DNA of 20,481 nt from a virus, in the IMG/VR virus record IMGVR_UViG_3300034073_002500, positions 1 to 20,481 of that record. One strand, 5' to 3'. Shown here piece after piece: positions 1,824-20,189 of the stretch (position 1 is the stretch's first letter; the number at the start of each line of letters is the position of its first letter). The notes beneath the pieces are model-generated. The model had not been told where the DNA came from and did no database searches. It saw only the letters and a program-made list of their open reading frames with translations. Made by a program: the position numbers and the translations under genes.

Positions 1824-3005
1824 ATGCCTTTATTTTCTGACACCATTAGCCCGACGCCTTTTGGATTTTTTGATAGTGACACTGCGTTTCAAGCAGAAGC
1901 TGACGGAATGATTACATTCGTTAAGCGCAAGCTTGGCGACGACGTGTTGTCTGTAGAATTAACTCGAAAAGAGATATGGGCGTGCTTTGAAGAAGCGTGT
2001 TGTGAATATTCAAGGTTAATTCATGAAACAAAAATTACGTCTGAGCTAACGAACGTATTAGGCGTAAACACTGGTTCTGCAGACTTTACCAACAAATATT
2101 CAAGACAAACGCTAGAATATTTGTTGCGCATGGCAGAACCTTATGCAACAGAAGCATATGTTGGTGGTTCATATGACGCAACGATGTGCTATGTAGATCT
2201 AATCAGCGGTCAACAAGATTATGACATTTATTCAGACGTAAAGGTATTGTCGGGCAGCAATGCTGGGGAAGTTTTCTTCGATACGCTGAGTGGTTCAAAA
2301 GGTAAATTAAAAATAGTCGAAATTTTTCATTTTGAGCCATTGGCAGCGCAAACGTTTCTTCTTAACGCATCTAATATCACAAACTTCTTAGCGACTAATT
2401 TTAATTATGAATCGTACGTAAACTCTACAATATTCTACGTACTTCCTATATTTGAAGACGTCTTAAGAAGAGGAATGCTAGAAAGCGCCTTTAGAGTAAG
2501 ACGCTCCAATTATAGTTATGAATTATTGGGTAGCAAGTTAAGAATTTACCCGATTCCAACCAGCGATTTGCAGTTGGGTAAAATGTATATCAAGCTTATG
2601 CCACCCCATGATCCGTATAAACCTCTGTACACCGATAACTCGATATACGGAATATCAGGTCCAAATAATTTTCCACTAGGTAATTTACCATTTGCTACGA
2701 TAAATCAACCAGGTAGACAATGGATTCGTCAATACACGCTAGCGTTGTGTAAGGAACTGTTGGGTTTAATCAGATCTAAATTCCAAAACATACCAATTCC
2801 TAACGCAGACCTTCAATTAAACGGCGAAGCTTTAATCTCGCAAGGAAGAGAAGATAAAGATAAGTTAATAAACCAAATGAAAGAATTTTTATTAAATATG
2901 ACTAAGTCTAAGTTGTTAGAAAATGATGCTCTAGCAGCAGAAAACTTAAATAAACAACTTAGGTTTATACCAATGCCTCTTGGAAAGAGTATTCAAATTG
3001 GATAA
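1824..3005 (+). CDS. Neck protein, T4 gp13-like
   Basis: A 393-residue virion protein. Two parts line up with my recollection of T4 gp13. Near residues 28-65, 'VKRKLGDDVLSVELTRKEIW' with the following 'CFEEACCEYS' matches the helix pattern at the gp13 N-terminus. Near residues 290-350, 'RQWIRQYTLALCKELLGLIR' followed by an LNGEALISQGREDKDKL-type helix matches its C-terminal region. T4 gp13 is about 309 residues, so this one is longer, with extra residues in the middle and at the end. gp13 works with gp14 at the portal-distal side of the neck to close the filled head before tail joining. The next gene being gp14-like supports the call. The only start near the N-terminus is ATG 1824. Confidence 0.7.
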   Translation: MPLFSDTISPTPFGFFDSDTAFQAEADGMITFVKRKLGDDVLSVELTRKEIWACFEEACCEYSRLIHETKITSELTNVLGVNTGSADFTNKYSRQTLEYLLRMAEPYATEAYVGGSYDATMCYVDLISGQQDYDIYSDVKVLSGSNAGEVFFDTLSGSKGKLKIVEIFHFEPLAAQTFLLNASNITNFLATNFNYESYVNSTIFYVLPIFEDVLRRGMLESAFRVRRSNYSYELLGSKLRIYPIPTSDLQLGKMYIKLMPPHDPYKPLYTDNSIYGISGPNNFPLGNLPFATINQPGRQWIRQYTLALCKELLGLIRSKFQNIPIPNADLQLNGEALISQGREDKDKLINQMKEFLLNMTKSKLLENDALAAENLNKQLRFIPMPLGKSIQIG

Positions 3006-3122: not shown

Positions 3123-4514
3123 ATGGCGCGCTTATTCATGAGTCCGAGAGAACTAAATTTCATATCGGATATTACAAAAGAAATTATTAAAGACGTCGTC
3201 GGACAAAAAATAATTTATTATCCTATTTCTGAAATTAAAACTAAGACTCATGAAGTTTATAATGAAGCGTTAAAAAAGATTTTTGATAATCCAATAATAA
3301 TAGATGCGCTAGTAGACAACAGCTTTCAAACAGACACCAAAATAGATAAGTTCGGTATCGATGCTCAATATAAAATAGAAGTTTATATTCAGCACAGAGA
3401 CCTAGTAGAAAAAGGAATTAATGTCACAATTGGAGACTTCTTTTCTTTTTCTGATATTTTTTATGAGATCACTGAGCGTACCTTTATGCGCAACATATAC
3501 GGTATGGCAGAGCATAAAGATGGAATTAGATTAGTTGGTACAAAATCTCGACTTGGTTTGTTCGAGGCGCCGATCGTTGGACCCACCGATATTTCATATA
3601 CGAATCCAGATGCGGTACAAGATGTGTTTGTTCAACAACGCGGACTAAAGTATATCAATAAAACAGGCGAAATAACTGGCGATGTACGAGATTTAGTTAG
3701 AGAAGGAGTTCTAGACGGTCCACTAACTGGGCAAAAAGAAGTTTCTGAACTCGGGGATCCGATTGGCGTTGGTCACGCATTTTATGACGACGACGATATT
3801 CGTACACCGTCAACTTATACCGTACCTTCTATTTTGCTAGCAATAACGACTCAAACGTCAGGCGGGATAGTAGGAGAAACAAATTTACTTAGAGAATTTG
3901 GAAATGTTGGATCAACTATAACGGGTACGATAACTCGAAACTACGATAAAGCAGCAATATCTAGTTATACTGTCGAATATCGCCCGAATGGTACAAGCAC
4001 TTGGACGGCAGTACCAGGTTTATCTAACGTAGCTGTTTCAGGTAATCCTGAAACAGTAACAATTACCTCTACTATTCACAACGATCCGACCCTATCGACT
4101 GCGACGACGATATATTATCGAGTGAGAGTAGTCGATAGCTATGAAACAACTATGTCAAGTACAACTTCTGTAGCATTTAATAGAGTTATATTTTTTGGAC
4201 CATCTGCAGCGGCCCCGACGACTTCGAATGCAGTCAGAGCTTTACCAGATAGGATATTTATAAACGGAGATAATCCGTTTATTTTGAATACGGGTTCGAC
4301 TAATGTAATATTTACAGTTGCTATGCCCGCGCCACTAACAATCGACGAAGTAAATGATTTGGACGCATATGGATTTGATATTACTAGCGCATATATTTCA
4401 TCAACATTTAGCGTCGCAGATAGTGCTGGAACATTATCGTCTTATAACGTGTACACAATGACAATTGGAGCAGCTTATACTTCGAACCATCGCCACGAAG
4501 TAACGAGGACTTGA
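3123..4514 (+). CDS. Neck protein, T4 gp14-like, with adhesin-like C-terminus
   Basis: A 463-residue protein in two parts. Residues about 1-165 resemble T4 gp14, a neck protein that joins gp13 in closing the head. The pattern is an N-terminal helix, a 'VVGQKIIYYPIS' strand, then 'DKFGIDAQYKIEVYIQ' and 'GDFFSFSDIFYEITERTFMR', matching gp14 'FYVPRE...KFTKAWKFAAYL...FFSNFGMQVQDEVTLSI'. Residues about 235-463 are Thr/Ser-rich and look like an Ig or fibronectin type III fold ('ISSYTVEYRPNGTSTWTAVP', 'IYYRVRVVDS'). They are followed by a segment starting 'FFGPSAAAPTTSNAVRALP' and ending 'YTSNHRHEVTRT', of a type I associate with phage fibre proteins. T4 gp14 is about 256 residues and lacks such an extension. 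Followed after two bases by the giant fibre gene, this suggests a neck piece that also displays or anchors an appendage (inference). Confidence 0.6.
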   Translation: MARLFMSPRELNFISDITKEIIKDVVGQKIIYYPISEIKTKTHEVYNEALKKIFDNPIIIDALVDNSFQTDTKIDKFGIDAQYKIEVYIQHRDLVEKGINVTIGDFFSFSDIFYEITERTFMRNIYGMAEHKDGIRLVGTKSRLGLFEAPIVGPTDISYTNPDAVQDVFVQQRGLKYINKTGEITGDVRDLVREGVLDGPLTGQKEVSELGDPIGVGHAFYDDDDIRTPSTYTVPSILLAITTQTSGGIVGETNLLREFGNVGSTITGTITRNYDKAAISSYTVEYRPNGTSTWTAVPGLSNVAVSGNPETVTITSTIHNDPTLSTATTIYYRVRVVDSYETTMSSTTSVAFNRVIFFGPSAAAPTTSNAVRALPDRIFINGDNPFILNTGSTNVIFTVAMPAPLTIDEVNDLDAYGFDITSAYISSTFSVADSAGTLSSYNVYTMTIGAAYTSNHRHEVTRT

Positions 4515-4516
4515 AC

Positions 4517-7500
4517 ATGGCACTAACACCAGGTCTTGAAGTCCCGTTTGGCATACAACCCGTTAATCCGATACCCGTAGATTCTTGGTCTGGCCCGTAT
4601 TCTGGTCCTGTCGGAGATGATACAATTGCGGGCGCTATTGCAGTTGCAAACGCTACTATTCCTCAAGCAGTTAGATTTCAATCGATGGAAGTTAGATTGA
4701 TCATTGGGGGAGAAGCTTACAAATATTGGTATAAAAATGGCATTGCGGACAGCGACTTAGTTTTATTTTCGGGTGGAGGTGGTGGTGCCGACGCTAATGC
4801 GCCATATCTTGTGCTTTCATCTACTGGTTCTTTATCTGCTGAAAGAGTTTTTGCAGTAGGCACAGGTTTAAAGGCAGTTGATGATGGAGCGGGTGGAAAT
4901 TATACTATTTCAATAAACAATTCAGCTATCGCAACACTTAGCGGTTCAACTTTTACTGGTGCTGTTAATTTTAATCAAGGGCTAAGCGGTTCATTAACTC
5001 AACTAACAGATGGCACTTCGTATTTGATCGCAGGAGAAAATATTGCGATCGTTACAAGTTCTAATGGATCGATTACAATTTCAGGTTTAGCAGGTGACAT
5101 CACCTCAGTTACAGCAGGAACTGGTCTGTCTGGTGGTGGTATGATAGGCGACATTACGTTAAATGTCGATGATTCTATCGTTGCTACGGTATCTGGTTCG
5201 ACCTTTAAAGGGTCCGTGAGCTTCGATGAAGGTCTTAGCGGTTCACTAACAAGACTAGTAGATGGAACTTCATATATCGTAGCCGGCGTAGGGATCTCGA
5301 TCTCTTCGGCTTCGAATGGTCCTATAACAATTTCGTCAGAAAACGCTGGTTCAATTACGGTTTCTTCAGGCTCTAATTCAGTATCATCTACCTCCAATCT
5401 CCAATTTGGGCCTGGGTTTATATTAAATCAGGAATCTACTGGCATCGCCGTAGTGTCAGGAACTATCGGAGAGCCTGAAGATGGTACGTATGCAGACGGC
5501 ATTTATACCGACTTTACATCGAACACGCTAATCGGAACGGCTATCGATAGATTCAATGAATTATTTTTAGCGTTAGCACCAAGTCCAGCACCAAGCCTAG
5601 ACAACGTTGACTGTGATACGTCGGCAGGAACAACCGCGTATTTATCGTTTGGTATAAGCAACGATCAATCGAGCGCTTCGCCGGCGTATATTTCCAGCAA
5701 TACGACAGCGGGATTTTCTGCCGTAGACGTTAATGACTCGTATAGTTCATCTACGTCAGGAGATAACATAAGAAAAGGAATTTATACAGGCACCTCAAAT
5801 ATATCTGGCGATTTAAACGAAGACGTACCTGCCTACGTTCATAACACTGGCGTGACAAATTACGTCGCAAATTCCTTTGGAGAAGCCAACCAAGGCACTT
5901 TAAAACTATATGCAAATGGTGCTTTATTGCATAGCGTAAATTTAACGACTAGCTCAGCAGGATCTGGTGTCCCAGGATCTGGTACAAAATCTCATTTAAA
6001 TGCGAATGGATCGGGTTTTACGAATCTATCGCAGACTGGCAGCGCAGTGCAATCGAACGGTCTTTCCTTTCCACCATTCCAGCACAGAACAGGAAAGTAC
6101 TTAGTTCACGCTGCTGACCAAAGAAATGGGTGGAATTATCTTCAAGTTATACACGATAAGGGTTCCACACAAACTCAAACAAATTACGTAGAGTGGATAA
6201 ATGACAATAACGCTGACGCATTAGTTGCAAGCAATAATTCTTTGTCTTTTGAAGGTTCTGGTTCAATCCATCTTTCGGGTGTTGAATATTTCCAAAGCGG
6301 TACTTTAACCTATAAAGTCAAAGTCGACAACGCATATAAGTACGTTTATGATAATACAGCGATTAGTTTTACGACATCGAACTCTTCTGCTGCTAGCTCA
6401 GGATTAAGCTTTAGTTTTGCGAACCAGACAAAACCTACTATCAACACGAGTGCAGGAGAAACGCACGCTAAAGCTCTACATTTAACGTCTTCAGCTACAC
6501 TCACTGCGAACTATTTAATTAATGGTTCAATTACTGCGGGTGTCAACGTTACACATCCTCTTAAATCTAATTTAACGAATAGTGGTCAGTCAACGACATC
6601 GCAAATACTAACGTACAATTATTCGAATACATCAACCGAATTAGCCGAAACCTTCCGTCGTGAAAATTATAGAATAATATCAGGATCATACGATACGCAA
6701 GCCGACGTCGTTAATGTCTCGAATGTTTGGAATTCAGAAATTTACATGACTTCTTCAAATGGAGGCCACTCGGACGGACTTCAATTTTATAATACAACGT
6801 TAGTATCTCCAAAAAACGCTGTGAATGGAGGTAACTTCTCCGTATTCTCAGGAGGTCCTAATGAAAATCCAAATTATTCTGGTATAATAGGCACAAGAAC
6901 ATTTTATAGATGGTTTAAAAACACATCTGGAGCTCAATACGATCTGTCTTTGGCGATGAATGGATCATCGACTATAGTCTCTAATGCGACAGCGTTCAAC
7001 GCGTCAAGAATCAAGTGTTTTATTAAAATACCTGGTAAAACAGGGTGGATGGACGTGGCGTTACCTTTTGTATTAGATAACGTGCAAGAAGGCGCCGGGG
7101 CTTATGTTTCTAATGCTTTATTAAGCTTTGATAGTACCTTAAACGCTACAAACTATTTAAACTTTGGAAATGTTTCAGTAGACAATAATGAGTATGTCGT
7201 TTTAAAGATACTAGCAGATTCTTCCTGGACAGGTAACGTATCTTCTATCACTGTAGACTTTGGCGCGGGTACTGGAACTTTAACGCCAGTCCCTGATTTA
7301 GACAATATAGATTCTGACAACGCAGGGACGACGGCAAGACTTTCTTTCGGTTCATCGAAATCTATAACAGGATACACGAATTCTTCGACAGACGCAGGAT
7401 TCTCTGCGGCGGATCTTAATGCAGTATATCAAGTTGCAACATCAGGTGCAAATCTTCGAAGAGCAGTATTCGCCGGCGCGACAACCATGGAAGGTGATTT

Positions 7501-9052
7501 GAATGAAGATGTGACGTCACCAGGTCAGGACTACGTCGCAAACGCATTTTCAGATGCCAACAGTGGAAGCATTAGTCTCGAAGTAAATGGAAGCGTAATA
7601 CACACTGTTGAATTAACAGGATCTTATAACCTCGTAGGCGTTGGATCGCCAGGCGCAGGAACAGGTACAAGTTTAAATGCAAATGGTTCAGGTTTCATTG
7701 CATTAAGCACATGGGGTCCAGGTTTGTTCGACAATGGTGTCCCAAGATATTCAGAAATACAGAGAACTGCCAAGTACAGAGTCGTACCCGCCAATCAAAG
7801 AACTGGTTGGAATTATTTGCGAGTATATCACACAGTAAACGGTGTTGACAGAACAACCAATTATGTCGAGTGGGTTAATGATCCCGATTCAAATGCTCTT
7901 TCTTCTGCTGGTAACGGACTGTCAATATTTGGTGATGATTCATTCTCATACATGAGCGGAGTTAAGTTCTTTAATTCCCCATCAGGAAGCATAAGAACTA
8001 GAATATCGAACATTTATAAGAACGTTTATTCCAATAGCTCAACTGCTATTTCTTTCACCAATCTAACAAATGCGACCGCCGCGCAAATTATCCAGTCGGG
8101 TTCCGGATTATCTTTGACGAAAACTACGAACGCTACAACAGACAGCCTTCAAACCTTGAATGCAAACGTAGATAGCCAAAATGAATTGCTACATGTTAGC
8201 GGAACTATAAACTTTACGCGAACAAAATCTTTACCAGGAACATACACGACTGCATACAGCTGCGGTGGAGCGATGGTGTTCGTTCATCCTCTAAAGTCAA
8301 ATCTTACTTTATCGACGCAACTAACGACGAATCTTTTAACATGGACACCTGTAAACACGAGCAATGCTAATACAGATGAATACTTTACGAGTGAAACTTA
8401 CAGACTCACAAGTGGATCTTATACTGCTCAATCAGATATAACAGGTGGTACAAAAACTTGGGATTCTACCATAAGCATGGACGATCAAGTTGGAAACCCA
8501 ACCTACGCTACAGGATTACTGGTGTATGACACTTATCTATTAGCACCTAAAGATGGTGGAGTTGATGGAGATTTCAGGAATCATATTGAAGGTGGATCAA
8601 TAGAGTCTCCTGCTGAAAACGTTAACTATAGTTCATTAACAAATTCCACAAGAAATTATTTTAGAGGATTTTTAAACAACACTGTAAATGACAGACCCAG
8701 CGTTCAAGTTACATTATTCGGAGACGCAACAATTGTTGGAAAAACAGGGCCTAATGCGGCGGCATTAGGGACGAATAAAAACATATTCGTAGAAGTCGGG
8801 GTGCCAGGAAAAACCGGATTATTAGATTTAGGTAAGCCTTCAGCGGGAGCAGGAAATATAATCGAAGGAGATGGTTGTTTAAGCGGTGACTTAAATGCGA
8901 CGGTCGACATCGATGGTGTAACCAATACATGCACATTCAATGGTGTAACAGCAGATGGTACGACCTCGGGCGCTGAATACATTATAGTCAAAATTTCAGC
9001 ATCTAAAAATTGGACTGGTTATTTAGATAGAGTGAGCATAACCTGGAGTTAA
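4517..9052 (+). CDS. Giant fibre/adhesin protein with tandem duplication
   Basis: A 1511-residue structural protein. I chose ATG 4517 because GAGGA at 4505-4509 is 7 bases upstream; an in-frame TTG at 4511 is less likely. Residues about 1-92 form an N-terminal domain ending in a Gly-rich hinge ('LVLFSGGGGGADAN'). This is followed by two modules of the GLSGSL...SNGSITIS type (to about residue 275) and a connecting segment. Two copies of a unit of about 570 residues then occupy 5597-7290 and 7298-9049. Both copies start after a Pro-rich linker with LDN(V/I)D. Both contain GDLNEDV, NGWNYL/TGWNYL, TNYVEW, VHPLKSNLT and PGKTG in the same order. There are no catalytic motifs. The likely role is a neck or tail fibre that binds the host surface. 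There is no signal peptide or membrane segment. Confidence 0.75.
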   Translation: MALTPGLEVPFGIQPVNPIPVDSWSGPYSGPVGDDTIAGAIAVANATIPQAVRFQSMEVRLIIGGEAYKYWYKNGIADSDLVLFSGGGGGADANAPYLVLSSTGSLSAERVFAVGTGLKAVDDGAGGNYTISINNSAIATLSGSTFTGAVNFNQGLSGSLTQLTDGTSYLIAGENIAIVTSSNGSITISGLAGDITSVTAGTGLSGGGMIGDITLNVDDSIVATVSGSTFKGSVSFDEGLSGSLTRLVDGTSYIVAGVGISISSASNGPITISSENAGSITVSSGSNSVSSTSNLQFGPGFILNQESTGIAVVSGTIGEPEDGTYADGIYTDFTSNTLIGTAIDRFNELFLALAPSPAPSLDNVDCDTSAGTTAYLSFGISNDQSSASPAYISSNTTAGFSAVDVNDSYSSSTSGDNIRKGIYTGTSNISGDLNEDVPAYVHNTGVTNYVANSFGEANQGTLKLYANGALLHSVNLTTSSAGSGVPGSGTKSHLNANGSGFTNLSQTGSAVQSNGLSFPPFQHRTGKYLVHAADQRNGWNYLQVIHDKGSTQTQTNYVEWINDNNADALVASNNSLSFEGSGSIHLSGVEYFQSGTLTYKVKVDNAYKYVYDNTAISFTTSNSSAASSGLSFSFANQTKPTINTSAGETHAKALHLTSSATLTANYLINGSITAGVNVTHPLKSNLTNSGQSTTSQILTYNYSNTSTELAETFRRENYRIISGSYDTQADVVNVSNVWNSEIYMTSSNGGHSDGLQFYNTTLVSPKNAVNGGNFSVFSGGPNENPNYSGIIGTRTFYRWFKNTSGAQYDLSLAMNGSSTIVSNATAFNASRIKCFIKIPGKTGWMDVALPFVLDNVQEGAGAYVSNALLSFDSTLNATNYLNFGNVSVDNNEYVVLKILADSSWTGNVSSITVDFGAGTGTLTPVPDLDNIDSDNAGTTARLSFGSSKSITGYTNSSTDAGFSAADLNAVYQVATSGANLRRAVFAGATTMEGDLNEDVTSPGQDYVANAFSDANSGSISLEVNGSVIHTVELTGSYNLVGVGSPGAGTGTSLNANGSGFIALSTWGPGLFDNGVPRYSEIQRTAKYRVVPANQRTGWNYLRVYHTVNGVDRTTNYVEWVNDPDSNALSSAGNGLSIFGDDSFSYMSGVKFFNSPSGSIRTRISNIYKNVYSNSSTAISFTNLTNATAAQIIQSGSGLSLTKTTNATTDSLQTLNANVDSQNELLHVSGTINFTRTKSLPGTYTTAYSCGGAMVFVHPLKSNLTLSTQLTTNLLTWTPVNTSNANTDEYFTSETYRLTSGSYTAQSDITGGTKTWDSTISMDDQVGNPTYATGLLVYDTYLLAPKDGGVDGDFRNHIEGGSIESPAENVNYSSLTNSTRNYFRGFLNNTVNDRPSVQVTLFGDATIVGKTGPNAAALGTNKNIFVEVGVPGKTGLLDLGKPSAGAGNIIEGDGCLSGDLNATVDIDGVTNTCTFNGVTADGTTSGAEYIIVKISASKNWTGYLDRVSITWS
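4798..5340 (+). repeat. Two fibre modules (GLSGSL...SNGSITIS type)
   Basis: Two protein-level modules in the giant fibre gene. Each has a VGTGL or TAGTGL strand, NYTISIN or DITLNVD, VATxSGSTF, then GLSGSLT, DGTSYxxAG and SNGxITIS. DNA around 4943-4975 is nearly identical to 9903-9935 in the next gene. Homologous modules also occur in the minus-strand fibre gene. Confidence 0.8.
5597..7297 (+). repeat. Tandem duplicated fibre unit, copy 1
   Basis: First copy of the unit of about 570 residues, beginning at 'LDNVDCDTSAGTTAYLSFG' and ending near 'DSSWTGNVSSITVDF' plus a Pro-containing linker. The copies share ordered landmarks (GDLNEDV, LNANGSGF, WNYL, TNYVEW, VHPLKSNLT, NYS..R.FYR/YFR, PGKTG) but have diverged, so the duplication is not recent. 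Confidence 0.8.
7298..9049 (+). repeat. Tandem duplicated fibre unit, copy 2
   Basis: Second copy, beginning at 'LDNIDSDNAGTTARLSFG' and ending at the C-terminus with 'SKNWTGYLDRVSITWS'. It carries all the ordered landmarks of copy 1 and a slightly longer end region ('IIEGDGCLSGDLNATVDIDG'). Confidence 0.8.
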
Positions 9053-9053
9053 A

Positions 9054-11462
9054 ATGGCCGGTAAAACAGATACGAGCGCCACACTTTTTGCGCAGAAAAA
9101 ACTTCTCGGTAAGGCCCACACCTCAAATTTAAAAATTGATGGTGAAGAGGTAATCGGTTCGAATATTCAGACATCGACTGATTTAATTTTTGGTGAACCA
9201 ATACCAAATTCTCCCATTCAGACGCTATATCTTATTCAGAGCGCCTCTGCTTCGGACAACGGCACAGTAGAGTACATACAATTCGTCTTAACTGCCTTAA
9301 CAGGTACCACATATGACGCCAACGTCTCGGGTGGTGGTTCAGGTACAGACGCAGGAGAAAGTTCGCAAGTTTCTGGTCCTCATGCTTATAAGTTTATACT
9401 TCCTTCTAACTATCAATCAATTTCAACCAATCCAAGAGCGGGTAATGGAGTTTTTGACAATAATAAACTAGTTCATGAAACCTTAGGACGATTGCAACTA
9501 GTTCCTCCGTTTTATTCTCAAACAGCGCCAAATCCTTATATCGTAAAAATATACAAGGACAATGGAGCTGGTGGCGTGGGAGACGAAATACCGCTATTAG
9601 ACAATATCGACTGGAACGTAGATTATTACAATGGTATTTTATTTCTACAGGATTATAGTGCTACAAAAATTCCCGCCTACGCAAGAGCCTTCGCGTACGT
9701 CGGAAAGACAGTAGATGAAGTCATATCATCAATATCTAATGGTTCTGCAGACACAAATGCCGAGTATCTATTGCTTTCAACGACGGGATCGTTAGGGTCT
9801 GCACGTTCGTTAACAGTAGGAACAGGATTAATAACACTCGATGGTGGAGCTGGTTCGAACTATACTATATCCATCAATGACTCGACCGTCGCAACCACGA
9901 GTGGTTCAACTTTTACGGGGGCTGTTAATTTTAACTTAGGTCTCAGCGGTTCGTTGACAAAACTTACAGATGGAACATCATATCTCGTTGCAGGAACGGG
10001 AGTTAATGTAATATCGTCTTCTAATGGATCAATAACCATTTCTGCGACCGGAGCGTCGACAGTCGCAGGAGCGAATCAGCAAATTCAATTCAACGATAAT
10101 GGCGCATTTGGTTCTGATGGTGGTTTAATTTATAACGCAACAAACAAAAACTTGCTTTTATCTGGCGCTTTGTTGATCGGAACAAGTTCGTTGTTAGGGA
10201 CTGAAAAACTAAGAATTGGGGGCGATTCTAGTTTTTATGGTAACATCGACGTATCTGGTAGTTTAACTGCAACATTGGGACTTAGCGGTTCATTAACAAA
10301 ATTAATTGATGGATCATCTTATCTAATCGCTGGCTCAGGAATATCAATAACGTCTAGTTCTAACGGTTCAATAACCATCACCAATGATGGTACCGTCGGA
10401 GATATCACGGCGGTTAATGCAGGCATTGGACTTATTGGTGGAGGAACAAGCGGAAATATTACACTCGATATAAACGACTCTGTCGTAGCAACGATTAGCG
10501 GATCAACATTTACTGGGCCTGTTATTTTTAATCAAGGATTAAGCGGGTCTTTAACTAGATTGATCGATGGAACCTCGTATATCATCGCGGGAAATAATGT
10601 AACTATAATTTCTTCATCGAATGGTTCGATCGTTATTTCGTCCGCAGATGGTCAGTCTTACGCAAAAGGATATATCTCTGGCTCGGCACAAGATGGATTC
10701 GGCAATATTGATATTTCTTCGATAGGGACATTGATCAACAACTACAATGAAACGACAGACATCGACGTTTTTAGAAATGGTCAAATTCTTACAGCTGGTT
10801 CTGATTTTGACTATACAGTTCCAACGAATAATACTATAAACTTGAATACGGCATTACAACCAGACGATATCATAACCGTGCGTATTTTAGTGTCTGGATC
10901 GTCGAATAATGGTGGTGGTGGAGGCGGTGGCGGTTCAGGAGATATAACGGCCGTCATAGCTGGAACTGGTTTACTAGGCGGCGCTACGTCTGGAAATGCG
11001 ACATTAACTATTGATGATTCTGTCGTCGCGACGACATCAGGTTCAAAATTCGTAGGACCCGTAACATCTTCGATAGGTTCTCTATTGGGGGGATATTCAG
11101 AATTTAGTGGCAGCGTTTCAGAGTCAATCGTAAACAACAATGGTAGCACAGGTATCATCGTTTTCGACACTACACAGGCTTCTATATTTTACGTTAATAA
11201 TCCGACAGGAAACGTTACTGCCAATTTTACGAATGTTCCCACGAAGGACATGAGAATTATTTCAACGACCGTCATTCTATCTCAAAGTTCTACAGCACGT
11301 ATAGTAAGTGCAGTTCAAATAGATGGCGTTGCTTCTGCGATTAATTGGGCGAATAATGTTATTCCTTCGGGCAACGCTAACAAACAAGACATCTTTGGAT
11401 TTAGCCTAATAAGATCTGGCAGCGTCTGGAAGACATTGGGACAATTGTCGACGTTCGGATGA
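9054..11462 (+). CDS. Modular fibre protein
   Basis: An 802-residue structural protein starting one base after the giant fibre gene stops, with GGAG at 9045-9048 as ribosome binding site. Residues about 1-230 form a unique N-terminal domain, probably for attachment to the virion. It contains 'LLDNIDWNVDYYNGILFLQD', a pattern seen at the base of phage fibres. Residues about 235-530 hold three modules of the VGTGL...GLSGSL...SNGSITIS family. A further segment ('YAKGYISGSAQDGFGNIDIS') resembles the end of the minus-strand fibre. An eight-Gly hinge is encoded at about 10911-10935, another partial module follows, and the last ~130 residues are a unique C-terminal domain that may bind the receptor. 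There are no enzymatic motifs. Confidence 0.75.
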   Translation: MAGKTDTSATLFAQKKLLGKAHTSNLKIDGEEVIGSNIQTSTDLIFGEPIPNSPIQTLYLIQSASASDNGTVEYIQFVLTALTGTTYDANVSGGGSGTDAGESSQVSGPHAYKFILPSNYQSISTNPRAGNGVFDNNKLVHETLGRLQLVPPFYSQTAPNPYIVKIYKDNGAGGVGDEIPLLDNIDWNVDYYNGILFLQDYSATKIPAYARAFAYVGKTVDEVISSISNGSADTNAEYLLLSTTGSLGSARSLTVGTGLITLDGGAGSNYTISINDSTVATTSGSTFTGAVNFNLGLSGSLTKLTDGTSYLVAGTGVNVISSSNGSITISATGASTVAGANQQIQFNDNGAFGSDGGLIYNATNKNLLLSGALLIGTSSLLGTEKLRIGGDSSFYGNIDVSGSLTATLGLSGSLTKLIDGSSYLIAGSGISITSSSNGSITITNDGTVGDITAVNAGIGLIGGGTSGNITLDINDSVVATISGSTFTGPVIFNQGLSGSLTRLIDGTSYIIAGNNVTIISSSNGSIVISSADGQSYAKGYISGSAQDGFGNIDISSIGTLINNYNETTDIDVFRNGQILTAGSDFDYTVPTNNTINLNTALQPDDIITVRILVSGSSNNGGGGGGGGSGDITAVIAGTGLLGGATSGNATLTIDDSVVATTSGSKFVGPVTSSIGSLLGGYSEFSGSVSESIVNNNGSTGIIVFDTTQASIFYVNNPTGNVTANFTNVPTKDMRIISTTVILSQSSTARIVSAVQIDGVASAINWANNVIPSGNANKQDIFGFSLIRSGSVWKTLGQLSTFG
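9748..10050 (+). repeat. Fibre module, long form
   Basis: The encoded segment AEYLLLSTTGSLGSAR... through SNGSITIS aligns with the first module of the giant fibre at 4798-5088, with a DNA stretch of about 33 bases around 9903-9935 differing at only two or three positions. Confidence 0.75.
10275..10650 (+). repeat. Fibre modules, short and medium forms
   Basis: A short GLSGSLTKL...SNGSITIT module is followed by GDITAVNAGIGLIGGGTSGN... through SNGSIVIS. The latter aligns with the second module of the giant fibre at 5095-5340. Confidence 0.7.
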
Positions 11463-12824: not shown

Positions 12825-14465
12825 TCAAACAGTATCTCTTAAGATAATGGCCAATATATCGTCACCGGTTAGCGTACTGGACAAATTAGAATCTAATGTG
12901 AACGTTGTAGTCGTAATGTTCGTTATGTCATAACCATAAGACAAGAATACACCGTTAAGGTACACATCAAGATATTCGTCTGTAGCCATTGGTAAAGTTC
13001 CAATTCCGCTAAAGGTAACAACGCCCGTGCCTGTATCGACATTACCATCGTTACCCAATAGGTAACCCTTGGCCGTAGTGTTAAGGCCAGCGTTAGATAT
13101 TGTTATTGCGCCGTTAGAACCAGTTACGATCGAAATACCGGTTCCTGCAATAAACGCTGATGTTCCATCTATAAGCTGAGTATGTGAACCACTGATTTGC
13201 TGAATATAACCACGGTACCAATTGGCTCCCGTTGTGCCGAGATCATAGGAATTGCTAGTCGATGGAGCAATCGTGCCCTGGAATGTCGTACCAGAAACTG
13301 TCGCAACAACTGAATCATTAATCGCCAACGTATAACTACCGTTCGCACCAGCATCTGTCGCTAAAAGACCTGTACCGGCTGCGAATACTCTTTCATTCGA
13401 CAAAGAGGCGTCAGCAGATAAAACGAGATATTGCGCTGCGGCGGAAGCCAAACCAGCGCCGGCGATAGTAACCTGACCATTCGATGCCGAAGTAATCGAT
13501 ATATTGTCTCCTGCGACTAGGTAAGATGTGCCATCAACGAGTTGAGTTAACGAACCAGAAAGTCCCAAGCTAGCCTTTACAACGCTACCAGAAATTTGCG
13601 CTGCTCGAATGTTTGAGTAGGAAGTAACAGGAATCGGTAAAGATCCTGTCGCGCTATTAGCCGTCGTCGCGAATGCAAATTCATTTTCGGAATCATCCCA
13701 AAATGATACGACGTTATCAGAACCAGAAAGACCACCAATCCAACCACGATCGCCAGTCATTTGCGCGATAGTTCCCGACGCAAAACCCAAACCGATCATA
13801 GAGTCTTTGATTTCTAAATTCGTCGTGTCGATCGTGGTCGTAGTACCGTTAACAGTTAAGTCTCCTGCAACAATAACGTTAGTGTTATCTAACGTTATTG
13901 CGGTATTACCGTCCGATGATTTAATTTGATTTCCTGTAACTTGCAAATTACCCTTAATCTCTGTTAGGGTATTCGAAGTCATCGTGATGTTAGTATTGCC
14001 ATCGGAAGCTTGAATGTCATTGCCTGCAACCTTTAAGTCACCAGCTGTCTCTACAAGACCTCCACCACCGATCGTAATGGTATTACTTGTCACGGAACCA
14101 AAAAGAGTCTTAGACTCATTTACATCGGAATCTAAATTACCTTGTAAAGTAATGTTACCGCCAACTTCAAAATTACCGGAACCGCTTATACTACCTGTAA
14201 CATATACATTGTTTTGAAAATTAGCAATTCCAGTAGAAGGTGTAACCCTAAACGCGGTATAAATGTCAGCTAAATCTTGAGAACCGCTGAGAGAATTGTA
14301 CCATCTCTCGGTACCCATTATTAATCTAACTTGAGTACGTAAAGAATTTAAGTCGTCTTCTAGCGTTCTATTGGCTTTAACTAAATTAACAGATAAAACT
14401 TGATCATCAAGTCTCGCGGGCAGCGTCCCGCTAATTTGCAGTTGTTGTACTTTAGTAATTGGCAT
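12825..14465 (-). CDS. Fibre protein, opposite strand
   Basis: A 546-residue structural protein with AGGAAA a few bases before the ATG as ribosome binding site. The N-terminus (about 1-60, 'MPITKVQQLQISGTLPARLD', then 'LNSLRTQVRLIMGTERWYNS') is probably a virion attachment and helical segment. Residues about 80-240 are a repetitive beta stretch with GNITLQGNL, GDLKVAGNDIQASDGNTNIT, GNLQVTGNQIKSSDGNTAIT and 'VNGTTTTIDTTNLEIKDSMI'. The last of these is a pattern common in phage fibre and baseplate proteins. Residues about 295-460 hold GLSGSL...SNGQVTI modules shared with the two plus-strand fibres, and the end is a strand-rich cap. It is transcribed away from the other fibres, between the ligase gene and a terminator. 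Confidence 0.75.
   Translation of the reverse strand: MPITKVQQLQISGTLPARLDDQVLSVNLVKANRTLEDDLNSLRTQVRLIMGTERWYNSLSGSQDLADIYTAFRVTPSTGIANFQNNVYVTGSISGSGNFEVGGNITLQGNLDSDVNESKTLFGSVTSNTITIGGGGLVETAGDLKVAGNDIQASDGNTNITMTSNTLTEIKGNLQVTGNQIKSSDGNTAITLDNTNVIVAGDLTVNGTTTTIDTTNLEIKDSMIGLGFASGTIAQMTGDRGWIGGLSGSDNVVSFWDDSENEFAFATTANSATGSLPIPVTSYSNIRAAQISGSVVKASLGLSGSLTQLVDGTSYLVAGDNISITSASNGQVTIAGAGLASAAAQYLVLSADASLSNERVFAAGTGLLATDAGANGSYTLAINDSVVATVSGTTFQGTIAPSTSNSYDLGTTGANWYRGYIQQISGSHTQLIDGTSAFIAGTGISIVTGSNGAITISNAGLNTTAKGYLLGNDGNVDTGTGVVTFSGIGTLPMATDEYLDVYLNGVFLSYGYDITNITTTTFTLDSNLSSTLTGDDILAIILRDTV
13087..13570 (-). repeat. Fibre modules on the opposite strand
   Basis: The encoded GLSGSLTQLVDGTSYLVAG...SNGQVTI, then QYLVLSADASLSNERVFAAGTGL...VVATVSGTTF and HTQLIDGTSAFIAG...SNGAITIS, repeat the modules of 4798-5340 and 9748-10650 in inverted orientation. 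By eye, DNA identity over the best ~100 bases is roughly 70-75 percent. Confidence 0.75.
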
Positions 14466-16393: not shown

Positions 16394-16681
16394 TTAATTG
16401 CTAGAGCTATTTGCTGTTTCTAGACTGTGCAGCATATCAGAAATCACGTTTTGAAATTGTGCCGAAGACGCTACATTTCGAATCTTGTCATCAGACAATC
16501 TTAGGTCCCATTCTTCGTCGAAAGCTTCGACGAACTTCGTCATAACTCTAAGAACATAGTTTCTTGCCGAAGAATGATTCATTACGAATCCGATCTCTGA
16601 CATGATATCTGCAATTTCTCGGTAATTAATTCCGTCATCATCGAGAACCGTAGCATACTCTTTGTTGTTATTCTTTTTCAT
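16394..16681 (-). CDS. Small helix-turn-helix protein, sigma region 4.2-like
   Basis: A 95-residue protein. Residues about 19-54 ('NYREIADIMSEIGFVMNHSS' then 'ARNYVLRVMTKFVEAF') fit the region 4.2 helix-turn-helix of sigma-70 factors (pattern EEIG..LGVSRERVRQIE..ALRKLR), with a few extra residues in the turn. The remainder (about 57-90) is two helices of unknown role. The ATG overlaps the stop of the small membrane protein gene by four bases (ATGA), and the sigma gene is just upstream of that. The sigma factor lacks exactly this domain, so I infer that this protein may supply -35 or activator contacts in trans, like T4 gp33 replacing region 4 for gp55. Alternatives are an ordinary DNA-binding regulator or a small terminase-like HTH protein. 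Confidence 0.6.
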   Translation of the reverse strand: MKKNNNKEYATVLDDDGINYREIADIMSEIGFVMNHSSARNYVLRVMTKFVEAFDEEWDLRLSDDKIRNVASSAQFQNVISDMLHSLETANSSSN

Positions 16682-16875
16682 GGTTTACGCTGCAACGAAT
16701 ATTTTCTGTGTTGAAGATCCAGTAATCTGTGATTTAATAGGCTGTGAATATCTTGTTCTTGAATTTGATGAGTATCATCTTGTTGCTGACGATAAAGTTT
16801 CACTAATTTTCTTAAGTAAAAAAGCGTCATTATCGACAAAAAGATATTCGTACCCATCAATGTGATAAGAATCAT
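16678..16875 (-). CDS. Small membrane protein, function unknown
   Basis: A 65-residue protein with one probable membrane segment at about residues 2-21 ('ILITLMGTNIFLSIMTLFYL'), then a basic stretch (RKLVKLYR) and a Gln/His-rich polar tail. By the positive-inside rule the tail would face the cytoplasm. It overlaps the sigma gene upstream and the helix-turn-helix gene downstream by four bases each (ATGA on both sides), so all three are probably translated together. It could be a membrane-bound modulator of the phage sigma factor or a small holin-like protein. Neither is supported by motif. Confidence 0.6.
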   Translation of the reverse strand: MILITLMGTNIFLSIMTLFYLRKLVKLYRQQQDDTHQIQEQDIHSLLNHRLLDLQHRKYSLQRKP

Positions 16876-17663
16876 GTTAGACCATTACCTAAAGCAATTG
16901 CTGCAGCCTCTGCGTCTGTTACTTCATATTCGCTAGAATCCACATCTTCGTAGAGCCCAAATCTCAGGCGCAGAATCGCTGCTTCCTTTGTAGAAAGTCC
17001 TGTCAAAACTTTCTTGACAACGCCCATCATTTCTTTTTTTGACAAACACTCGAATGGATCATTGGCATGGTTCGTATCCTCGATTTTGTCTTCAAGAGTT
17101 GAATTACTATCGTCGCCAATTTGTTGTTGCAAAGATACGATATTCTTGCCAGACTGCATCGTCGCCTTAACGACAGTTTCTGACACGTCGATCATTTCAG
17201 AAAGTTCTTCCGAAGTAGGACCGTATCCCATCATTTCTTTAAATGAATCTGACGCTTCGATTAACTTCTTTTGCGCAGATGCAGCATGCGCTGGGAGTCG
17301 AATGATCTTCTTACGTTTCAGGACATACTGACTAATAGCTTGCTTAATCCACCACGTCGCGTAAGTCGAAAAACGAAAACCCTTCTTCCAGTCAAATTTA
17401 TCAATCGCCTTTAGTAAACCAAGATTACCTTCTTGAATAAGATCCTCCAAAGGAATATTGTGTCCCTTGTGTTTCTTTGCGATATAAACGACAAGTCTCA
17501 AATTGGACTCGGTCAATTTTTGACGAGCACGAGTCGCGTCCTTTCCACCCTTTTCATAAGTTTGAAAAAGTTGAACTAGTTCATCATGTTCTAGTTGTGG
17601 ATAGGTCTGCAACGATCCCAAATAATTCGAAATCGTATTTTGCTTTGATGTATTGTTTAGCAT
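16872..17663 (-). CDS. Sigma-70 family factor lacking region 4.2
   Basis: A 263-residue RNA polymerase sigma subunit that would redirect the host enzyme to phage promoters. I chose the ATG at 17663: it lies one base after the upstream stop, and an upstream in-frame ATG at 17708 would overlap that gene by 44 bases. Region 1.2 is at about 10-42, then region 2 (about 47-117, 'NLRLVVYIAKKHKGHNIPLE', 'DLIQEGNLGLLKAIDKFDWK', 'RFSTYATWWIKQAI'), region 3 (about 118-205, 'IIRLPAHAASAQKKL', 'YGPTSEELSEMIDV', 'VSLQQQIGDDSNSTLEDKIE') and region 4.1 (about 206-237, ending 'LRLRFGLYED'). Where region 4.2 should follow there is only a 26-residue acidic and Ala-rich tail. The Trp pair of the -10 melting region is kept (WW, 104-105). 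Confidence 0.9.
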   Translation of the reverse strand: MLNNTSKQNTISNYLGSLQTYPQLEHDELVQLFQTYEKGGKDATRARQKLTESNLRLVVYIAKKHKGHNIPLEDLIQEGNLGLLKAIDKFDWKKGFRFSTYATWWIKQAISQYVLKRKKIIRLPAHAASAQKKLIEASDSFKEMMGYGPTSEELSEMIDVSETVVKATMQSGKNIVSLQQQIGDDSNSTLEDKIEDTNHANDPFECLSKKEMMGVVKKVLTGLSTKEAAILRLRFGLYEDVDSSEYEVTDAEAAAIALGNGLT

Positions 17664-17664
17664 C

Positions 17665-17988
17665 TCAATTCGACTCGCTGGTTTCAGTAGTCTCATTCGA
17701 CTCAGCAAGAATTACATCAACCTCAGCCTGAGGTACAAACTTCTTCATATACTCTGCATGCAGTTCAGAACGAGTTTGACGCAGCTGCTGCTCGCGGCGA
17801 AGATATGCAACTTCGACTTCCCAAAGATGCGCATCCTTGTTCATGGAAAGAAGGCGATTCCTTTCGTTTTCAAGGCGCTGAGAGCGATCATGGATCGCCT
17901 CGTCCGTCATATAACCGATGTCGTCCATGTTATAAACATCGGGGGTTTCATTGATGAAATTCTTGCTAGGCTTGTTCTTCTTAGACAT
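17665..17988 (-). CDS. Charged helical protein, function unknown
   Basis: A 107-residue protein with AGGAA 7 bases before the ATG. The N-terminus is Lys- and Asn-rich. Residues about 27-85 form a long charged helix ('YMTDEAIHDRSQRLENERNR', 'HLWEVEVAYLRREQQLRQTR') and the C-terminus is acidic and disordered. No family is named. It ends one base before the sigma factor start codon, so it is translationally linked to the sigma gene and could be a partner or anti-sigma-like protein (inference from position only). Confidence 0.65.
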   Translation of the reverse strand: MSKKNKPSKNFINETPDVYNMDDIGYMTDEAIHDRSQRLENERNRLLSMNKDAHLWEVEVAYLRREQQLRQTRSELHAEYMKKFVPQAEVDVILAESNETTETSESN

Positions 17989-18269: not shown

Positions 18270-18668
18270 TCAATCGATTAACTGAATTGTTCCCCATTCA
18301 TCTTTTGCGATTGTATAAACGACTTTTCGAACACCTGCAGCGCGCATTCTTCCTTGACAACCAGTACATGGTCGTGACAAGGTCCATTCGCCAGTAGATC
18401 GCAAGACTCTTGCAACCCAAACGATAGAATCAGGAGTAAGTTTTCTTACTACACGCGCTTCCGCATGATGCGTAGGAACTACGTTCGCGGCAGCAATATT
18501 TTTCGCAGTTACGATAACGCCATCTTTTCTAAGGCCAACAGCGCCGAGACAGAAAGAACGATTGTCATATCGTTCGGGTTTATCTCGGGCAACTTCTGCT
18601 GCCATGGCCAACATCCTCTTGTCAATCGACATATAGTAATAAGACTTTATCGCAACAAGATGAAACAT
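18270..18668 (-). CDS. Cytidine/dCMP-type deaminase
   Basis: A 132-residue zinc enzyme of the cytidine deaminase superfamily. The zinc and catalytic motif is HAE (His68-Ala-Glu70), with the second motif PCTGC (Pro100, Cys101, Cys104). The order and about 31-residue spacing fit the family. The N-terminal part 'CLGAVGLRKDGVIVTAKN' is the usual beta hairpin before the first motif. In phages such enzymes usually turn dCMP into dUMP for thymidylate synthesis, but the substrate cannot be read here and free cytidine is possible. TTAGGA lies shortly before the ATG at 18668. An alternative start at 18632 (MSIDKRML) would remove 12 residues that family members often lack. It is divergent from the lysozyme gene, with a 29-base gap. 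Confidence 0.8.
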   Translation of the reverse strand: MFHLVAIKSYYYMSIDKRMLAMAAEVARDKPERYDNRSFCLGAVGLRKDGVIVTAKNIAAANVVPTHHAEARVVRKLTPDSIVWVARVLRSTGEWTLSRPCTGCQGRMRAAGVRKVVYTIAKDEWGTIQLID

Positions 18669-18697
18669 TGCATCCTAATTATTTCAGGAGAATTATT

Positions 18698-19390
18698 ATG
18701 AGTATCAACGATGAAATGAAAACTTCACAAATAGGTTTAGAATTAATCACCAAGTGGGAAGGACTAAAATTAAATCGCTATACTTGTATAGCTGGTAAAC
18801 CAACGATTGGTGTCGGACATGTAATTCTTCCTGGAGAAAATTATCAAACAATTACCCGCGAACAAGCGATGGACATTCTTGCAAAAGATGTAGAAAGATT
18901 CGAAAAAGCTGTCAAAAAACACATAACGGTAAAATTAAATCAAAACCAATTCGACGCATTAGTTTCTTTTATTTTTAACACAGGCGAAGGCGGCATTATT
19001 AACACGGGCGTTCAAAAGGCGGTAAATTCTGGCAATTTTGAAATCGTTCCTGAAAAACTTCTAGAATGGAGCAAAGCAAGAATAAATGGCGTTTTGCAGA
19101 CAAATAAAGGATTATATAATCGTCGTTTGTCAGAGGGCCAATTGTTTTCAAAACCTGTTCAAGGTACGACAATTCCCGAAATAAAAATGATGACATGGAC
19201 GAAAACTTCGTTGATGAAAGCCCAAGAATCATTAGCAAAATTGAAACTATATACGCTTAAAATTGATGGCCTTTGGGGCCCAGGTACCCAGGCTGCTTTA
19301 TTAGCTTTTGCAAATCACAGAGGATTTTCAATTGGTAACGATCCCAAAAAAGAAATTCCACTCGAAGTTTACGAGGCTTTAACTTCATGA
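18698..19390 (+). CDS. T4-type lysozyme (GH24) with peptidoglycan-binding domain
   Basis: A 230-residue endolysin cutting the glycan strand of peptidoglycan. AGGAG at 18686-18690 sits 7 bases before ATG 18698, so I prefer this over an in-frame ATG at 18668. Catalytic Glu21 lies in 'KWEGLKLNRY'. Positions equivalent to T4 lysozyme Glu11-Asp20-Thr26 are Glu21, Cys30 and Thr36, with identical spacing. Cys in place of Asp is also found in other members of this family. 'PTIGVGH' and 'NQNQFDALVSFIFNTGEG' are also typical. Residues about 170-228 form a PG_binding_1-type domain ('MKAQESLAKLKLYTLKIDGL', 'WGPGTQAALLAF') that would tether the enzyme to the wall. There is no signal peptide, so release would need a holin or equivalent. 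The SGNH esterase gene overlaps its end by four bases. Confidence 0.9.
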   Translation: MSINDEMKTSQIGLELITKWEGLKLNRYTCIAGKPTIGVGHVILPGENYQTITREQAMDILAKDVERFEKAVKKHITVKLNQNQFDALVSFIFNTGEGGIINTGVQKAVNSGNFEIVPEKLLEWSKARINGVLQTNKGLYNRRLSEGQLFSKPVQGTTIPEIKMMTWTKTSLMKAQESLAKLKLYTLKIDGLWGPGTQAALLAFANHRGFSIGNDPKKEIPLEVYEALTS

Positions 19391-19998
19391 ATTTTTTCTT
19401 TTTTTCTTTAATTACAATATTGATAATTCAACCGATAAACGCAATAAAAGAAGCTTACTTTTTTGCAAAAACTCATGTGCAATTAAATTCAATTGCAAAA
19501 AATAAAAAAATATTGCTTTTGGGTGATTCGCTCGCCGAAGGTATGACTTCTACTTTTCATAAATTAGCAAAACAATATGGGTATATTTCAATATCAAATT
19601 GCTTGAGGGGTTCGGGTGTGCAATATTGGTCACCCAAAATCGAAAAAATTATAACGCTAAATAAACCAGATTTGCTAGTTGTTTCATTGGGTACAAACGA
19701 CTCTGGAATTGCTTCACCAGAGACTCAAAGAAAACACATAAAAAATATAAAAAATGTTGCTATAAAACACAACGTTCGTATTTTATGGATTTTACCCCAA
19801 GCCCTACCTTCACGCTTTAAAAGTCAAAACGAAATTAAGCAAATAATCATTGATGAATTAGGCGATAACGTTTTTTACACAAAAAACGAAATTGAAAAAA
19901 CGAACGACAAAATTCATCCAACACACAAAGGATACGAAATATGGATGAATTTAATTTGGCAACGATTAATTGAAAAAGGAATTTTAAATAAAACTTAA
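19387..19998 (+). CDS. SGNH/GDSL-type esterase, membrane-anchored or exported
   Basis: A 203-residue hydrolase. Residues about 2-16 are hydrophobic (FFFFSLITILIIQP), followed by a charged region, so it may be exported or anchored in the membrane. The SGNH blocks are present: GDSLAEG with Ser48, Gly in 'LRGSGVQYW', LGTND with Asn104, and DKIH with Asp174 and His177. Such enzymes remove acyl groups from carbohydrates or lipids. The ATG overlaps the lysozyme stop (ATGA), so the two are co-translated. I infer it could strip O-acetyl groups from peptidoglycan or surface sugars to help lysis or infection. The gene is noticeably richer in A and T than its neighbours. It ends tail-to-tail with the FmdB gene, overlapping by four bases. 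Confidence 0.8.
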   Translation: MNFFFFSLITILIIQPINAIKEAYFFAKTHVQLNSIAKNKKILLLGDSLAEGMTSTFHKLAKQYGYISISNCLRGSGVQYWSPKIEKIITLNKPDLLVVSLGTNDSGIASPETQRKHIKNIKNVAIKHNVRILWILPQALPSRFKSQNEIKQIIIDELGDNVFYTKNEIEKTNDKIHPTHKGYEIWMNLIWQRLIEKGILNKT

Positions 19999-20189
19999 TC
20001 TTTTTTCGAAGAGTATAGATCTTTATACCACCCGCCACCCTTCAGCGAAAAACTTGTACATGATGAAATTAATCGATTATGACAAAAGGTTTTGCAATAA
20101 GGACACTCGGCGCCTTTTTCATCTTTAATAGATTGTCGAATTTCGAAAGAACCGCTACAGACTAAACAACCATATTCATAAGTTGGCAT
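19995..20189 (-). CDS. FmdB-type zinc ribbon protein
   Basis: A 64-residue protein matching the FmdB family pattern. It begins 'MPTYEYGCLVC', has paired CxxC motifs at Cys8/Cys11 and Cys29/Cys32 ('AECPYC') to bind one zinc, and ends with 'FSLKGGGWYKDLYSSKKD', the usual family finish. GGAG at about 8 bases upstream supports the ATG at 20189. The family's role is poorly defined; it is thought to be regulatory, and members occur in bacteria and phages. It follows the partial gene by 12 bases on the same strand. Confidence 0.85.
   Translation of the reverse strand: MPTYEYGCLVCSGSFEIRQSIKDEKGAECPYCKTFCHNRLISSCTSFSLKGGGWYKDLYSSKKD

Follow-up and report, generated by a model that had tools for sequence, protein, structure and literature searches.

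Among large uncultured tailed phages of one group, some lineages carry, overlapping the end of the lysozyme gene, an accessory gene for an SGNH-family protein; this pair is neither the fluke of one genome nor a phage-wide arrangement. The SGNH protein is probably an exported envelope hydrolase. More tentatively, we propose that it is an accessory, probably Sec-exported SGNH acyl-esterase that would be made together with the endolysin and whose likeliest single role would be to remove O-acetyl groups from the wall for the lysozyme. The window analysed here, i.e., the whole stretch of DNA at its full length, is a 20,481-base virus record from this group (IMG/VR IMGVR_UViG_3300034073_002500, positions 1–20,481).

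At the right end of the window, a deaminase gene of the dCMP/cytidine type (18270–18668, minus strand) and a lysozyme gene (18698–19390, plus strand; 230 aa) form a divergent pair, and AGGAGAA, a Shine–Dalgarno-like sequence (18686–18692, plus strand), lies 5 nt before the lysozyme ATG. The next gene (19387–19998, plus strand; 203 aa) encodes the SGNH-family acyl-esterase-like protein, assigned by Pfam, alignment and predicted structure. Its start overlaps the lysozyme stop in the ATGA read at 19387–19390 on the plus strand, and its own stop overlaps, convergently and again by 4 nt, that of a zinc-ribbon (FmdB-like) gene (19995–20189, minus strand). The latter is the right border of a variable site; the deaminase gene is the left border and served as a query for finding relatives. 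An earlier note on this DNA, made from the sequence alone, had described the overlapping pair at 18698–19998, and its coordinates, strands and ATGA are confirmed. That note also took the ATGA as a sign of coupled synthesis. The overlap is real, but by itself it is unremarkable, because exact 4-nt overlaps are common in the window, where they occur in 5 of 19 same-strand neighbour pairs with the gene starts chosen. A second contig, IMGVR 3300035670_001168 (L001/L081), is identical to the window over the 7,656 bases compared; it is therefore the same virus and provides no independent evidence.

The lysozyme is of the GH24 (T4) type. It matches Pfam Phage_lysozyme (PF00959) with an E-value of 2.5e-34 (118.7 bits; cut-off 22.3), and its PHROG match is an endolysin. 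The alignment of relatives places the catalytic stretch E21–C30–T36 at 18758–18805 (plus strand), where E21 and T36 are invariant in all eight aligned relatives and position 30 is Cys or Asp. The spacing of these residues is that of E11–D20–T26 in T4 lysozyme, by whose numbering they are assigned. A muramidase with a wall-binding domain had been proposed, of which the muramidase stands; the C-terminal tail is PG_binding_1-like at a weak score (E 0.0044, 17.6 bits), under the cut-off of 23, and it contains a DGxWG motif present in 8/8 aligned relatives. A hydropathy check of the N-terminus revealed no hydrophobic segment, which suggests that the enzyme is probably holin-dependent. The GH24 lysozymes of Nodularia phages share 38% identity with it over 79% of the query, and a search with the SGNH profile gave no match at the locus of one Nodularia-type contig (L004).

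The SGNH copy in the window scores above the cut-offs of DUF459 (PF04311, E 1.8e-9) and Lipase_GDSL (PF00657, E 2.1e-7) and slightly below that of Lipase_GDSL_2 (PF13472, E 3.4e-7). DUF459 is the top Pfam match in all three copies scanned, those of the window (37.7 bits) and of the related contigs L094 (36.1 bits) and L113 (41.3 bits), against a cut-off of 27.2; the model is covered in part, the window copy aligning to only the first 75 of its 197 positions. The conserved blocks are block I, G46-D47-S48 with the catalytic Ser48, in invariant alignment columns (19522–19530); block II, the canonical Gly75, which aligns with Ser161 of PatB (19609–19611); block III, G102-T-N-D105 (19690–19701); and block V, Asp174-x-x-His177 (19906–19917), all on the plus strand. 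Their Ser, Gly, Asn and Asp/His are complete and invariant in all four intact copies aligned, which represent three distinct proteins, those of L094 and L098 being identical. Residues 1–29 (19387–19473, plus strand) form a hydrophobic segment, with a best 12-residue hydropathy of 2.94 and a low-confidence helix at 3–29 in the predicted structure. We infer from this stretch a signal peptide or membrane anchor, and hence a protein that is probably exported. One point against the proposed role is the L113 copy, whose N-terminal segment shows no sequence likeness to those of the other copies and carries no positively charged residue among the first five. The complete SGNH blocks and the hydrophobic N-terminal segment fit the probable exported esterase of the earlier note.

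An AlphaFold2 model built from four sequences (pLDDT 77.7) has the alpha/beta/alpha SGNH fold; its confidence is good over most of residues 33–200, lower at 101–110, 141–150 and 161–180, and unreliable before residue 33. In structure comparisons, the best Z score was 19.4, to PatB of Neisseria gonorrhoeae, followed by PatB of Campylobacter jejuni (19.3), TesA (17.7–19.0, with 4jgg at 19.0 and E. coli TesA entries at 17.7–18.8), OatA (17.7) and Ape1 (17.0–17.4), with carbohydrate esterases also near. All these neighbours lie within 2.4 Z units, PatB being tied with TesA and slightly above Ape1. The comparison with peptidoglycan O-acetyl esterases that had been suggested does find Ape1 among the neighbours but does not favour it, PatB and TesA scoring slightly higher.

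PatB, the DUF459 (PF04311) protein, is the peptidoglycan O-acetyltransferase of Gram-negative bacteria. It shares with the phage protein the SGNH domain and the S-D-H triad and superposes on the model at 2.0 Å over 165 residues with 22% identity (20–22% over the PatB proteins compared). Ahead of the catalytic His stands an Ile or Val, a feature shared with PatB but widespread in the SGNH superfamily and therefore set aside as evidence. The DUF459 match and the structural rank of PatB raise the reading that the phage protein is a PatB-like O-acetyltransferase, which would attach acetyl groups to the wall and might, for instance, delay lysis or shield the wall from other lysozymes. In the available part of PMC9487903, DUF459 is the PatB family and Ape1 belongs to GDSL_2, and the L113 copy is also above the Lipase_GDSL_2 cut-off (41.8 versus 32.9 bits). 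The NCBIfam PatB model gives the phage copies only 14.8–21.4 bits against a cut-off of 580. According to the accessible text of PMC12148441, the features specific to PatB are a Ser or Asn in block II, two wing-like beta-hairpins and a hydrophobic wall (Leu250/Ile304). At the block II position, the phage protein instead has Gly75 in 4/4 intact copies. From the block III Asn to the block V Asp there are 70 residues, as against 106 in gonococcal PatB; this stretch, being 36 residues shorter, leaves little room for wing hairpins, and wing beta-hairpins are absent from the secondary structure of the model, the loops there being of low confidence. The part of about 100 residues that PatB has ahead of its SGNH domain is also missing. 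A search for the MBOAT partner (PatA, PF03062) gave 0 matches in 31 virus records, mostly fragments, with 4/14 genomes matched in the control; a PatA of the host could serve. Since the block II residue of PatB and any sign of its wings are absent and no MBOAT match was found in the 31 records, a hydrolase is favoured over a transferase and is the likelier of the two; hydrolysis by the SGNH protein is what we infer here, and the acetyltransferase reading is very improbable.

A hydrolase could be likened to Ape1, a peptidoglycan O-acetylesterase with the SGNH fold and a Ser-His-Asp triad, whose activity is the one proposed here for the phage protein. Membership in the Ape1 family itself was tried and became less credible: Ape1 chains have 350–365 residues (4k3u, 8gkd, 8gld) and 17–18% identity, and the phage protein, with 203, is far shorter and lacks extra residues beyond the SGNH core. 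The peptidoglycan O-acetyl esterase countering a host wall modification, as first suggested, is plausible but no more than that, the nearest structures being PatB and TesA and the chain being far shorter than Ape1. Peptidoglycan de-O-acetylation is the likeliest single role for the enzyme, at a level of belief that makes it possible rather than probable; lipids, LPS and surface polysaccharides are alternative candidate substrates.

One alternative is a TesA-like enzyme (thioesterase I/lysophospholipase L1) that would leave the cell and cleave esters in membrane lipid, lysophospholipid or LPS, aiding the breakage of the outer membrane at lysis instead of acting on peptidoglycan. TesA shares the top of the structure ranking with PatB, the core of the phage protein has the size and fold of TesA, and the L113 copy weakly matches the TesA model NF007819 (E 0.0033, 17.1 bits versus 270). 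Against this, fold similarity by itself says little, identity to TesA is 17–19%, the sequence models that the window copy matches are DUF459 and GDSL, with the window and L094 copies above the DUF459/PatB Pfam cut-off, and the NCBIfam scan listed no TesA match for either of these two; we consider a TesA-like role unlikely. Somewhat less likely again is a deacetylase of surface polysaccharides that would alter the host surface (by receptor removal, superinfection exclusion or the release of progeny from debris) and would be linked to the lysozyme by late expression only. SGNH domains do occur in phage tail and depolymerase proteins, as described in the available portions of PMC9862828 and PMC3853054; of the 50 viral matches listed in the structure comparison, 6 carry the names of tail or neck proteins and 43 exceed 300 residues; and the nearest other viral relative, at L134 (470–1567, plus strand), has an SGNH domain of the same type within a baseplate-spike-like protein, its neighbours being baseplate-like as named by eye. 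The window protein, however, is free-standing, at 203 aa, has an export-like segment of its own and carries no virion domain, and 7 of the 50 viral matches listed are also short (187–283 residues).

The recurrence of the pair was followed through relatives from three scans: one with the flanking deaminase gave 22 loci, one with the downstream gene 28, and one with the lysozyme alignment 80. These relatives are metagenome contigs, many of them short, among which chimeras are possible. Twenty-nine contigs with a lysozyme relative, the flanking genes of the group and a readable site were counted, the virus of the window once. Contigs were left out because the lysozyme is at the contig edge (L097, L101–L104, L107), because the stretch searched contains no lysozyme relative (L109, L116–L118, L121, L125–L129), or because the lysozyme lies in other neighbourhoods (L143, L145, L149, L150), in which the stretch read contains no SGNH gene. 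An intact SGNH gene lies behind the lysozyme in 4/29 (window, L094, L098, L113), corresponding to three lineages, and a decayed one in 1/29 (L124), where it is split across frames, with stops upstream and the block V His replaced by Cys. No SGNH gene is found in the other 24: 17 have no gene behind the lysozyme (L089–L093, L095, L096, L099, L100, L105, L106, L108, L114, L115, L123, L147, L148), including near-copies (identical sigma sequences in L090–L093; L095/L096; L106/L108); five have a protein with an HExxE motif (L119, L120, L122, L146, L151; the call in L120 judged by coordinates, which are the same as in L119); and two have a TilS-like gene on the opposite strand (L002 and L141, the latter contig ending within the gene).

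In the window, L094, L098 and L113, the SGNH gene has the same place and strand and the same 4-nt overlap with the lysozyme stop, and its own stop overlaps that of the zinc-ribbon gene by 4 nt in the intact copies. Between lineages, the SGNH proteins are 38–48% identical, and the lysozymes of L094, L098 and L113 are 54–69% identical to that of the window. Positions 1–1433 of L094, which take in the SGNH and zinc-ribbon genes and roughly the final third of the lysozyme gene, are identical to L098 DNA; L094:1434 is a breakpoint within the lysozyme gene, and after position 1500 the two differ by about 4–16% per 100 nt (over the first 2,500 bases). This breakpoint could reflect recombination or a chimeric assembly, since the L098 type (L097) is also present in sample 3300020578; the two contigs were counted as one lineage. 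A reading of the pair as not conserved, to which single-sequence scans had led (the pair in L001/L081 only), was overturned by the deaminase and downstream-gene scans. The pair is intact in three divergent lineages, so that the possibility raised in the earlier note, of a pair conserved nowhere, does not hold. The interpretation given there is, as a whole, only partly supported: the SGNH gene is absent from most of the related contigs read, and other genes occupy the same place.

Wider searches extended the pair no further. A profile search of all ORFs of 219 loci gave no further SGNH gene beside a lysozyme, and none of 146 more distant lysozyme loci (L003–L080 and L152–L219, all matching the lysozyme profile) has one within 4–6 kb flanks or to the contig end. 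Scanned over the whole records behind the 80 loci of the single-sequence scans, which used the window's own lysozyme and SGNH proteins, PF13472 matched in 2/80, both under the cut-off: the virus of the window itself and L087, an unrelated record in which the match is far from the lysozyme. The collection scans depend on a few short peptide patterns that relatives may escape, the scan with the SGNH alignment having missed L124. A search of 30 related records, over the stretches available, gave six matches: L094, L098, L113, L124, the L134 baseplate domain, and a weak one in the L150 record (E 0.006, with one internal stop); a free-standing SGNH copy away from the lysozyme was not found in these 30. 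Besides L134, the SGNH profile picked up the domain in three phage records that lack annotation and in distantly related cellular proteins of the DUF459 kind, and the nine loci with such distant kin (L083–L085, L134–L139) contain no lysozyme relative.

Among phage records, the window SGNH protein matched 49 (Lactococcus 24, Staphylococcus 11, Arthrobacter 7, Leuconostoc 4, unnamed 3); the matches listed (30 of the 49) comprise neck proteins from phages of Lactococcus and Leuconostoc, one with no annotation beyond hypothetical, and unannotated faecal contigs. The L113 copy matched faecal contigs only. A scan of cellular genome contigs gave five loci, distant DUF459-like proteins of Acetobacteraceae with 21–25% identity, and a recent capture of the gene from a cell was judged less likely in view of such distant kin. 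The G+C content of the SGNH gene is the lowest among the window genes compared (0.299 versus 0.365–0.447) and is also the lowest in L094 and L124, but that of L113 (0.364) is within the range of its neighbours, so that a foreign origin is only hinted at by composition. On a tree of the sigma factor and deaminase, the distribution of the intact gene needs two changes without the decayed copy and three with it. SGNH identity drops with the divergence of the viruses, which, on few points and with key forks of the tree left open, fits a long residence accompanied by losses.

The other occupants of the site bear on whether the pair has any functional meaning. The HExxE protein is conserved, has 241–323 aa and an invariant HExxE motif in the alignment, and is encoded on the minus strand in L122 (6145–7068), L119 (6520–7311), L125 (6458–7186), L129 (1565–2290) and L118 (6465–7436) and on the plus strand in L146 (4730–5524) and L151 (4674–5579); in L122, its gene overlaps the lysozyme gene by 4 nt. 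No family was found for it in Pfam (L122 and L129; best E 0.16), PHROGs (L122 and L129) or NCBIfam (L122 and L125), and its model (pLDDT 53) gave no fold match at E ≤ 0.001; its sequence profile gave only matches at E 0.05, to colicin E5, from which nothing was concluded. The TilS-like gene, on the strand opposite to that of the lysozyme, resembles the N-terminal domain of tRNA-lysidine synthase (L002:6693–7331 and L141:4699–5058, both minus strand); the L002 copy is above the NCBIfam domain cut-off (102.4 versus 93.6 bits), and L141 matches it at 83%.

Because unrelated genes occupy it, the site may be an insertion hotspot with no functional tie to the lysozyme, i.e., the gap between the lysozyme and zinc-ribbon genes may hold whatever cargo arrives, be it an SGNH gene, an HExxE gene, an opposite-strand TilS-like gene or nothing. 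The frequency of 4-nt overlaps in the window fits this explanation, as do L118, L125, L128 and L129, where the HExxE gene adjoins the zinc-ribbon gene in stretches that, as far as searched, contain no relative of this lysozyme. It is nevertheless unlikely, given that 4/4 intact SGNH genes share the orientation of the lysozyme gene and overlap it and that the related records searched hold no other free-standing SGNH gene. Its constant orientation and overlap, together with active sites that are intact, speak for a use timed with that of the lysozyme; the SGNH gene is dispensable, since 24 of 29 readable contigs have none and in another it is decayed. A variant of this idea, which we regard as doubtful, is that the slot behind the endolysin receives exchangeable envelope-opening helpers, either an SGNH de-acylase or the hydrolase-like HExxE protein, that would match the lysis kit to the wall of the host.

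Other features of this group deserve mention. A head–tail adaptor-like protein (1824–3005) matched seven records at 26–33% identity, including Microcystis phage Mel-JY01, Flavobacterium phages immuto and Rhodothermus phage RM378. Relatives sharing flanking genes include L129, a contig of 200 kb that has the ligase, sigma-factor, deaminase and zinc-ribbon genes, and L128 (278 kb), which has the zinc-ribbon and downstream genes only. A sigma-70-like factor (16872–17708, minus strand) has regions 2 and 3 and little of region 4 (E 0.023, positions 2–20 of 50); its relative in L002 (4100–4873, minus strand) is likewise short, and the group may thus retain a sigma factor that lacks the usual −35-binding part. 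An IF-3-like gene (translation initiation factor), recognised by eye, lies near the lysozyme in L150 (5752–6288, plus strand), a contig of 361,490 bases. Three fibre-like proteins in the window (4511–9052, 9054–11462 and 12825–14465), encoded on both strands, repeat a motif of about LSGSLTxLxDGTSYLxAG. A 65-aa protein (16678–16875, minus strand), whose gene overlaps both neighbours by 4 nt, has a single hydrophobic stretch at its N-terminus and a tail of charged residues and is a possible small membrane lysis protein.

In the literature searched, which mostly excludes subscription journals and preprints, no lysozyme–SGNH pair coupled as here was found. LysB is an alpha/beta-hydrolase that acts on mycolyl-arabinogalactan. 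The LysA–LysB system of mycobacteriophages resembles the present pair in combining an endolysin with an esterase for a layer of the host envelope (available part of PMC8309991), but the counterpart of LysB here is of the SGNH family and occurs in a different kind of phage. Proteus phages (Novosibovirus) have a small free-standing SGNH/GDSL lipase, for which wall O-acetylation and lysis are discussed in the accessible part of PMC9229222; there, its gene is transcribed divergently from ORF2, and that part does not place it with a lysozyme.

O-acetylation of MurNAc blocks lysozymes, according to the available parts of PMC6174289, PMC9862828 and PMC12148441; these parts do not mention phage lysozymes, and in the first paper the word "phage" does not occur. 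Because 6-O-acetyl on MurNAc has this effect, de-O-acetylation of the wall is the most economical single use for the SGNH protein, on the assumption that the host wall carries O-acetyl groups and that the GH24 lysozyme of the window is itself blocked by them. The lysozyme and the SGNH protein would be made from one message, linked by the 4-nt stop/start overlap, and would appear late in infection. The esterase would be exported at once and would strip acyl groups bound through esters to the host wall, in the likeliest case the 6-O-acetyl of MurNAc, while the lysozyme, without a signal of its own, would remain cytoplasmic until a holin breaches the membrane; it would then meet a wall open to cutting.

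If the SGNH gene is only the cargo of a hotspot, it is an example of ordinary phage gene traffic. If, however, its product removes O-acetyl groups from the wall, the pair would be a phage answer, in the form of a two-gene lysis cassette, to a widespread modification that confers resistance to lysozyme. Such cassettes would supply enzyme pairs for the lysis of acetylated walls, and the idea that wall O-acetylation is an anti-phage defence acting at the lysis step would become testable.
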